Assembly: GCF_004340785.1 (NCBI RefSeq)
Contig: NZ_SLXS01000003.1
Location: 33,689-97,688 of the forward strand
From: Tumebacillus sp. BK434
GTDB taxonomy: Bacteria > Bacillota > Bacilli > Tumebacillales > Tumebacillaceae
Direction of reading: 5' to 3'
Length of the DNA stretch: 64,000 nucleotides
The notes beneath the pieces are model-generated. The model did no database searches. It was not told where the DNA came from and saw nothing but the letters and a program-made list of their open reading frames with translations. The translations under genes and the position numbers were made by a program. This document shows, piece after piece, positions 1-34,490 of this stretch (positions within the stretch are counted from its first letter, which is position 1; each line of letters begins with the position of its first letter).

Positions 1-45
1 CATCCTCTCCAGTTTCACAAATAAAAAAGTATGGGGGTGACATTC

Positions 46-87
46 ATGGAGCGCAACATCAAAATCACCGTAACTATCGAATTCTAG
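46..87 (+). CDS. MERN micropeptide, copy 1
   Basis: A 13-residue ORF, MERNIKITVTIEF, with an ATG six bases after a GGGGGTG ribosome site and a TAG stop. It is the first visible copy of a tandem array whose unit is 91 bp; bases 2-92 and 93-183 look identical. Hydrophobic residues alternate (I5, I7, V9, I11, F13), which is a beta-strand pattern. There is no signal peptide, Cys or obvious processing site. Function is unknown. That it is translated is inferred from the ribosome site and from how later copies keep the peptide while the DNA drifts. The array probably starts upstream of the window. Confidence 0.6.
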   Translation: MERNIKITVTIEF

Positions 88-136
88 AACTTATCCTCTC
101 CAGTTTCACAAATAAAAAAGTATGGGGGTGACATTC

Positions 137-178
137 ATGGAGCGCAACATCAAAATCACCGTAACTATCGAATTCTAG
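137..178 (+). CDS. MERN micropeptide, copy 2
   Basis: Second copy, encoding the same 13 residues as copy 1 from an apparently identical DNA unit, with the same GGGGGTG ribosome site and TAG stop. The identity of the two 91-bp units points to recent duplication or gene conversion. Function is unknown. Confidence 0.6.
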   Translation: MERNIKITVTIEF

Positions 179-226
179 AACTTATCCACTTCGGTTTACA
201 AATAAAAAAGTACGGGGGTGACATTC

Positions 227-268
227 ATGGAGCGCAACGTTAAAATCACCATCACCATCGAGTTCTAA
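227..268 (+). CDS. MERN micropeptide, copy 3
   Basis: Third copy, MERNVKITITIEF. The upstream DNA has diverged (one base shorter, several substitutions) but the GGGGGTG site and spacing are kept. Within the ORF the changes against copies 1-2 are I5V, V9I, two synonymous third-base changes (ACT to ACC, GAA to GAG) and TAG to TAA. Conservative or silent change in every position suggests selection on the peptide. Function is unknown. Confidence 0.6.
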   Translation: MERNVKITITIEF

Positions 269-317
269 TTTTCGAAGATCAAGCGTGCTAACATAACTCA
301 TCTGGAGGTGTTTACAC

Positions 318-365
318 ATGGAACGCAACTGGTCCATCGGCATCACCATCACGTTCGAGTTCTAA
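318..365 (+). CDS. MERN micropeptide, copy 4 (divergent)
   Basis: Fourth and most divergent copy, MERNWSIGITITFEF (15 residues). It has a different upstream sequence with a textbook GGAGGTG site seven bases before the ATG. The DNA flanks no longer match copies 1-3, yet the MERN start, the alternating I/T stretch and the EF end are kept; the second codon is GAA instead of GAG. A terminator follows directly, so this is the 3' end of the array. Function is unknown. Confidence 0.6.
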   Translation: MERNWSIGITITFEF

Positions 366-373
366 GCACCATT

Positions 374-405
374 AAAACGCCTTCTCCTTAGGAGAAGGCG
401 TTTTT
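374..405 (+). terminator. Terminator of the MERN array
   Basis: A 12-bp stem (AACGCCTTCTCC and its complement) with a three-base loop, followed by a T run. It lies nine bases after the stop of copy 4 and closes the array transcript. Confidence 0.85.
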
Positions 406-34214: not shown

Positions 34215-34229
34215 TTTCTAGCACTCTCC

Positions 34230-34350
34230 TTCTAAAAGCCGCCGGAGTTAGCTGACGGGTTCGGGTGAAGGATACCCGCTCGCCTGCTGCGCGAGTTCAC
34301 CCCAGATATGGTTCCTCCGTTCCTCATCAGATTTGAGGATTAGGCTTGTC
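34230..34350 (-). promoter_or_regulatory. ydaO/yuaA-type cyclic di-AMP riboswitch
   Basis: On the minus strand the leader has the conserved blocks of the ydaO-yuaA class in order: TAATCCTC, GGAACGGAGGAACCA, TGGGGTGAA, then CCGAACCCGTCAGCTAAC followed by TCCGGCGGC, ending just before the ribosome site AAGGAG. This class binds c-di-AMP and switches genes off when it is bound; wall-lytic LysM/3D genes are frequent targets. The expression platform cannot be resolved by eye, but no long T run is obvious, so translation control or a short terminator is possible. Confidence 0.88.
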
Positions 34351-34490
34351 ATGTGGTCGAGTGCTAGAATAACGCAGATCAGGCCTCCGTTTCACTAGTC
34401 GATAACTGGAAATGGACTGGAAGAATCTCCGCGAGCCGCCCGCATCCGGCGCGGGTACAGGGATCGCGTCGTGCCGCAGTCGGCGAATGG

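Follow-up and report, generated by a model that had tools for sequence, protein, structure and literature searches.

Micropeptide ORFs at the end of the BK434 array

Four short ORFs were found in a row at 46–365 on the + strand of the window (the whole 64,000-nt stretch of Tumebacillus sp. BK434 DNA that was analysed), as the original prediction had claimed. They were the rightmost members of an array comprising nine or more units, and the four units of the window are numbered here as units 6–9 of the whole array. Units 6 (46–87) and 7 (137–178) both encoded MERNIKITVTIEF with stop TAG, unit 8 (227–268) encoded MERNVKITITIEF with stop TAA, and unit 9 (318–365), which was of the W type, encoded MERNWSIGITITFEF with stop TAA. 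The ORFs of units 6 and 7 were identical and 91 bp apart, and unit 8 carried exactly the changes listed for it beforehand (I to V, V to I, ACT to ACC, GAA to GAG and TAG to TAA). The strong ribosome sites that had been claimed were present on the + strand 6–7 nt upstream of each ATG, as GGGGGTG at 33–39 (the first in the window, 6 nt before its ATG), 124–130 and 214–220, and as GGAGGTG at 304–310.

Behind unit 9, a perfect 10-bp stem (378–387/391–400) with a 3-base loop was followed by T5 (378–405, + strand; seen in the sequence and by folding). A terminator had been proposed at this place; the hairpin is probably a shared one closing the array, and with the next gene running towards it may serve both directions, although a scan for consensus terminators reported no site at 378–405.

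The array had been thought to start left of the window. On leftward extension of the contig, five further units were found, then 98 N (L006 5592–5689, directly left of window base 1) and then the units of the window. Since these 98 unread bases sit inside the array, the copy number in BK434 is a lower bound. Start-to-start spacing was 90–101 bp, and 191 bp across the N run. With the usual 91 bp not divisible by 3 and a stop at the end of each ORF, the array was not a repeat protein read piecewise. The genome used here comprised 4,645,837 bases in 32 contigs. BK434, from cottonwood root, has been described with 4,646,936 bp in 34 contigs in 33 scaffolds (PMC7256259), and the N run would match the single scaffold join implied by that description.

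Arrays and neighbouring genes in related genomes

Among seven genomes of the family, the array was present in all three of Tumebacillus and in none of the four of a neighbouring genus. Besides the copies (at least 9) of BK434, the search of related genomes that had been recommended found 6 in T. avium AR23208 (NZ_CP021434.1) and 19 in a third congener (G005). The three arrays held 34 intact ORFs (31 A-type and 3 W-type units) encoding 10 distinct peptides, namely MERNGVKITVTIEF (10 units), MERNIKITITIEF (8), MERNIKITVTIEF (4), MERNGVKISITVEF (3), MRNKVTITVTIEF (3), MERNVKITITIEF (2) and four singletons, and each array closed with a hairpin visible in the sequence. Tandem repeats with a period of 91–98 were detected in BK434 and G005, and these, together with intact ORFs in three species, excluded chance.

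The original prediction had named stops or frameshifts within the ORFs in relatives as a result that would refute it; none was seen. The ORF listing required a start, a G-rich ribosome site and the alternating motif, and broken units could not appear in it. Successive units were separated by spacers of 44–59 nt with two exceptions, the N run of BK434 and a stretch of 143 nt in G005, and these two gaps are therefore the only places with room for a hidden broken unit. The G005 stretch held an unrelated tiny ORF, MISIQILNYSDFY (L024 4807–4848, between units 17 and 18), behind a seven-G run; by eye it did not align with the units, and it may be a decayed or foreign copy.

A C-terminal search pattern (I-[TS]-[IV]-T-[IV]-E-F-stop) matched in 3 of 14 genomes of the order, 3 of 398 of the class and 1 of 398 of the phylum. 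The last was the window's own genome, G005 and T. avium being absent from that draw; the class and phylum draws had 16 genomes in common. The reversed control pattern matched in none of the 398 class genomes and in 3 of the 398 phylum genomes. T. avium was the sole match in a pattern scan of genome contigs (84,980 species by description), which may omit the window's own genome and is uninformative on the GVK type of G005 because its gap was one codon too short. No match was obtained in the viral contigs searched with the pattern. All search patterns were tied to this sequence, so analogous arrays with other peptides would escape them.

All three arrays adjoined the same 102-aa gene, which lay at 417–725 on the minus strand of the window, convergent with the array. 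Its product was acidic (24 D/E, 12 K/R), had no Pfam match and had matches in 9 of 14 genomes of the order. A divergent MFS transporter gene (Pfam MFS_1, MFS_3) lay beside the array in BK434 and T. avium, and the second gene downstream in BK434 encoded a radical-SAM enzyme, a spore photoproduct lyase (Pfam SPL, 1.2e-171). Nine BK434 neighbours were typed by Pfam, one of them without a match, and some further L006 ORFs were left out. Both the MFS and the lyase gene were full-length in BK434 and broken in G005, where the array is largest: the MFS gene had become pieces of 31–108 residues with internal stops (L024 2229–2799), and only the last 42 residues of the lyase were left (L024 5411–5536). 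The T. avium lyase gene (L023 3016–4040) looks frameshifted at its end, as residues 1–338 and 327–342 overlapped in different frames. Elsewhere in the window, a c-di-AMP riboswitch was detected at 34222–34356 on the minus strand (Rfam RF00379, 88.5 bits).

All four sister-genus genomes had the 102-aa gene together with the spore photoproduct lyase gene (77.7–79.5% identity) but without the array, and no such micropeptide ORFs were present on the array side of the 102-aa gene; PAP2-like and M42 genes were each found in three of the four (in the stretch read). The array was thus either gained in Tumebacillus or lost in the sister genus. Two other genomes (G012 and G013) gave weak matches to the 102-aa protein (E 2.4e-7 and 7.8e-9), with no such ORFs in the ~4 kb read alongside. 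The MFS gene, on account of its broken copy in G005, and the downstream genes, on account of their presence without the array in the sister genus, were rejected as partners of the array.

These neighbours bear on two explanations. The peptides might be released and act on other cells as pheromone or antimicrobial, the array setting the dose; their small size and leaderless formyl-Met start, which recall leaderless bacteriocins and phenol-soluble modulins, would suit this, as would the MFS transporter adjoining two of the arrays. However, this gene is only a remnant in the owner of the largest array, and a second transporter was missing from the nine typed BK434 neighbours, as was any peptide-binding (TPR) regulator of the Rgg/PlcR type as linked to pheromones (two nearby HTH_3 proteins had no TPR match, E 0.001). 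Quorum signals, moreover, are usually single-copy, and a net charge of −1 to +1 is unlike that of most membrane-active peptides. We consider release of this kind unlikely. The peptides might instead be precursors modified by an enzyme encoded elsewhere, as ribosomal natural products (RiPPs), in whose pathways multiple near-identical cores are common, and a radical-SAM enzyme is indeed encoded nearby in BK434. Against this, the enzyme is a spore photoproduct lyase that is kept in the four array-less genomes and survives beside the G005 array only as a 42-residue remnant, no precursor-specific linked maturation enzyme was found among the nine typed BK434 neighbours, and four residues are too few for the head to be a usual leader; a precursor role is accordingly given little credence.

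Selection on the peptides and signs of high output

The original prediction had argued that selection acts on a translated peptide in which hydrophobic residues alternate, and had called for a comparison of synonymous and non-synonymous change across copies. Changes were counted in sense codons along a minimum spanning tree of the unique A-type ORFs, the three W-type units being omitted (31 of 34 units used). The three species together gave 25.8 silent changes at 8.2 silent sites and 12.2 replacement changes at 29.1 replacement sites, a ratio of 0.13 (P 1.2e-9); with the stop codon included, the counts were 30.8 and 12.2 and the ratio 0.11. For single species, silent and replacement changes numbered 6 and 3 in BK434 (P 0.004), 4 and 0 in T. 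avium (P 0.002) and 16.8 and 7.2 in G005 (P 1e-6), the significance of these being nominal only. The binomial test assumes independent changes and equal rates, and since the copies share a history of duplication and probably of gene conversion, the substitution and codon counts are not fully independent. The replacements seen were I/V, one T/S and a swap between GVK and KVT.

ORF lengths varied in steps of three only (42, 45 and 48), in contrast to the 44–59 nt of the spacers. Between species, ORF identity was 0.73–0.93 (all A-type pairs), and spacer identity was 0.48–0.54 versus 0.48 (sd 0.06) for shuffled spacers (last 20 nt excluded); W-type units, and spacers with N or longer than 70, were omitted from these all-pairs values. 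When the first three spacers were compared at matched positions (whole spacer, ribosome site included), identity between species was 0.51–0.90, from which it is inferred that the first units are old and that the other spacers were turned over by expansion from different units. The MERN head was conserved in 31 of 34 units despite silent variation in its codons, which points to the peptide, and the final Phe and one Ile were invariant in all 31 A-type units. The substitution pattern, the lengths of ORFs and spacers, and the codon use described below thus bore out the proposed selection, and we are highly confident that the products are selected, translated micropeptides.

Codon adaptation of the arrays was 0.87 in BK434, 0.92 in T. 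avium and 0.76 in G005, compared with a mean of 0.48 (maximum 0.68) for 28 window genes and with 0.73 for 23 ribosomal/EF genes; unique ORFs ranged over 0.82–0.98, 0.83–0.99 and 0.64–0.85, respectively. The reference for all three arrays was the ribosomal genes of BK434, and the gene sets were picked by script. The BK434 peptides re-encoded with window codon use scored 0.56 (sd 0.05, maximum 0.70, n = 500). In the arrays, the ribosomal/EF genes and the window genes, the share of ACG was 3, 11 and 46%, that of CGG 0, 1 and 21%, and that of TTC 97, 82 and 61%. Departures from the ribosomal genes were seen for GTA (85% vs 24%) and AAA (100% vs 46%), an excess that could be explained by duplication of single units. 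Because codon use resembled that of ribosomal proteins, bulk production of the peptides is likely, as inferred without expression data; the high dosage suggested originally is supported by this and by the 19 copies in one species.

A G-rich ribosome site stood 6–8 nt before the ATG in all 34 units. It contained GGGG in 32 of them and belonged to the GGGGTG, GGGGGTG or GGGGGGTG type in 32, and GGAGGTG was used only by the final W-type unit of BK434 and that of G005; among the 63 window genes with a site, 18 had GGAGG and 8 GGGGG. The region upstream of the array was conserved across the three species. There, a promoter-like pair (TTACCA/TTGACC-18-TATTAT, + strand) occupied the same aligned place in BK434 (L006 5024–5053) and G005 (L024 3015–3044), and the stretch from this pair to the first unit was well conserved although the divergent MFS gene of G005 is broken. 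The pair is a consensus match only, without evidence of function. An earlier promoter guess, TTGCRT after an AT-rich block, scored under the scan threshold. In each of six BK434 units, the ribosome site and the start of the ORF together made up a + strand promoter-like match (GTGACA-17-TAAAAT or CAAAAT), which would speak against a single promoter, and the BK434 region had 12 promoter-like sites versus 2.8 in shuffles. G005 had 4 versus 4.7 in shuffles, with none of the per-unit type inside its array, and the promoter-like matches within the BK434 units were therefore treated as a by-product of the repeat. We infer that all units lie on one transcript, on which ribosomes would initiate independently at each site, and the copies would in this way multiply output.

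The G-rich sites and the conserved upstream region could also reflect a role of the RNA itself (a regulatory RNA, a ribosome or anti-Shine-Dalgarno sink, or an attenuation leader), the peptide being a by-product, and in two of three species the leader folded a little more stably than shuffles (z −1.40, −1.03 and 0.33). Selection, however, acted at the amino-acid level, and six A-type stretches folded no better than shuffles (z −0.98 to 1.33). Two W-type stretches reached z −5.0 and −5.8, but the terminator hairpin was included in them. The ribosome site could pair with the ORF over 5 bp in 15 of 34 units, and no Rfam match at the gathering score was found in the three array loci (L006, L023 and L024). 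A regulatory leader is defined by a same-strand gene directly downstream, and here the hairpin with its T tract is followed by the convergent gene at 417–725, so there is nothing to attenuate. An RNA-level role appears very unlikely.

β-strand pattern and possible self-assembly

In all 10 distinct peptides the last nine residues alternated perfectly between hydrophobic and polar (hphphphph). The β moment was 0.51–0.93 and the helical moment 0.05–0.20, a difference of ~4- to 9.5-fold, and shuffles of the same residues reached the β moment with P 0.0003–0.008. Net charge (K+R−D−E) was −1 to +1, with +1 in MRNKVTITVTIEF only. No signal peptide or membrane helix was recognized by inspection (no predictor was run). 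Two W-type peptides opened the tail with hhh, and one W-type peptide, MERNWYIGITVTIPF, had Pro where Glu stands otherwise. By their hydrophobic-polar alternation, the peptides are predicted to be amphipathic β-strands.

In the proposed product, MERN would form a charged head, followed by a tail of 9–11 residues in which I, V or F alternates with polar residues. Such single strands may stack mutually into cross-β sheets or fibrils, with the hydrophobic face inside and the Thr/Lys/Glu face outside, and would supply a bulk material with a structural or scaffold role, located within the cell or the spore or, once lysis has occurred, outside; the W-type peptides at the array end may, speculatively, nucleate or cap the assembly. 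Self-assembly was the reading that fitted the sequence best, signal or antimicrobial, partner-acting and RNA-level roles being less supported. That the array mass-produces a monomer self-assembling into β-sheets, in the manner of a functional amyloid, is nevertheless put forward only tentatively, at somewhat less than an even chance: assembly is inferred, no transcript, peptide or fibril has been seen, and the array is absent from the four sister-genus genomes.

The β-strand pattern also suits partner binding. A peptide could add a β-strand to a partner protein in trans, as an inhibitor, a chaperone-like filler or a donor strand, and the constancy of MERN and of the strand pattern would agree with this; the invariant final Phe and Ile perhaps exceed what aggregation needs. 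Yet no partner gene was linked by co-occurrence, as the sister genus has the downstream genes but no array and the array persists in G005 beside two broken neighbours, and I/V and K/T exchanges are tolerated. Action on a partner is therefore also judged improbable. The sheet might further present Thr-x-Thr ladders outward, as ice-binding proteins do, or protect against stress. Thr-x-Thr stood on the polar face of 8 of the 10 distinct peptides, in keeping with the known TxT rule, and was missing from the other two; Thr is, besides, simply a good β-former. One member of the genus came from permafrost, but BK434 was grown at 28–30°C and T. avium came from vulture gut (PMC7256259). An ice-binding or protective role is scarcely to be expected.

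Several known systems share single traits with the array. Like phenol-soluble modulins α1–4 of Staphylococcus, which are amyloid-forming and produced at high output, it lines up several short ORFs that lack a leader (34 in the three arrays, with one transcript inferred). Those modulins, however, are amphipathic helices of 20-odd residues, four diverged peptides with a dedicated exporter, whereas the arrays encode up to 19 near-copies of 13–15-residue predicted β-strands, and the low helical moments do not meet the amphipathic α-helix feature. Ldr/Ibs type I toxins of E. coli also form direct repeats with one small ORF each, but they are longer membrane helices with their own promoters and an antisense RNA per copy; the strict alternation of the last nine residues in all 10 peptides does not allow a continuous hydrophobic membrane helix. 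Minus-strand promoter-like matches inside the arrays numbered 4 in BK434 and 1 in G005 (consensus matches only). The microcin C7 precursor MccA is likewise among the shortest natural translated genes, but is single-copy, encodes 7 residues and is modified by MccB.

Designed alternating β-sheet peptides of the KFE8 type are similarly short with strict hydrophobic-polar alternation but are synthetic and not genes (PMC13063417). Leaderless bacteriocins, e.g. enterocin DD14 (PMC10376788), share the lack of a leader and neighbouring homologous ORFs. Such bacteriocins are longer and cationic and have transporter and immunity genes, unlike the array: its peptides are not cationic, and no linked transporter with immunity gene was found among the nine typed BK434 neighbours, the one MFS gene being broken in G005. 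The array thus failed at least one tested defining feature of every known family against which it was tested, and no paper on such micropeptide arrays was among the literature matches listed. On these two grounds the architecture was rated new, its function being untested; a strict reader could see in it a variant of tandem small-peptide genes.

If self-assembly is correct, the array may encode a β-sheet material whose monomer is a bare strand of 13–15 residues, in which whole genes are repeated instead of the modules of a repeat protein, and in which expansion and shrinkage of the array would tune the amount or blend; this wider proposal is possible but weaker than that of assembly alone. Genes of 13 codons lie below the usual annotation limits, and a class of bulk peptides could thus be overlooked. 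Assembly, if it occurs, would place the peptides among the smallest building blocks found in nature and make the array a case of dosage achieved by repetition of whole ORFs.
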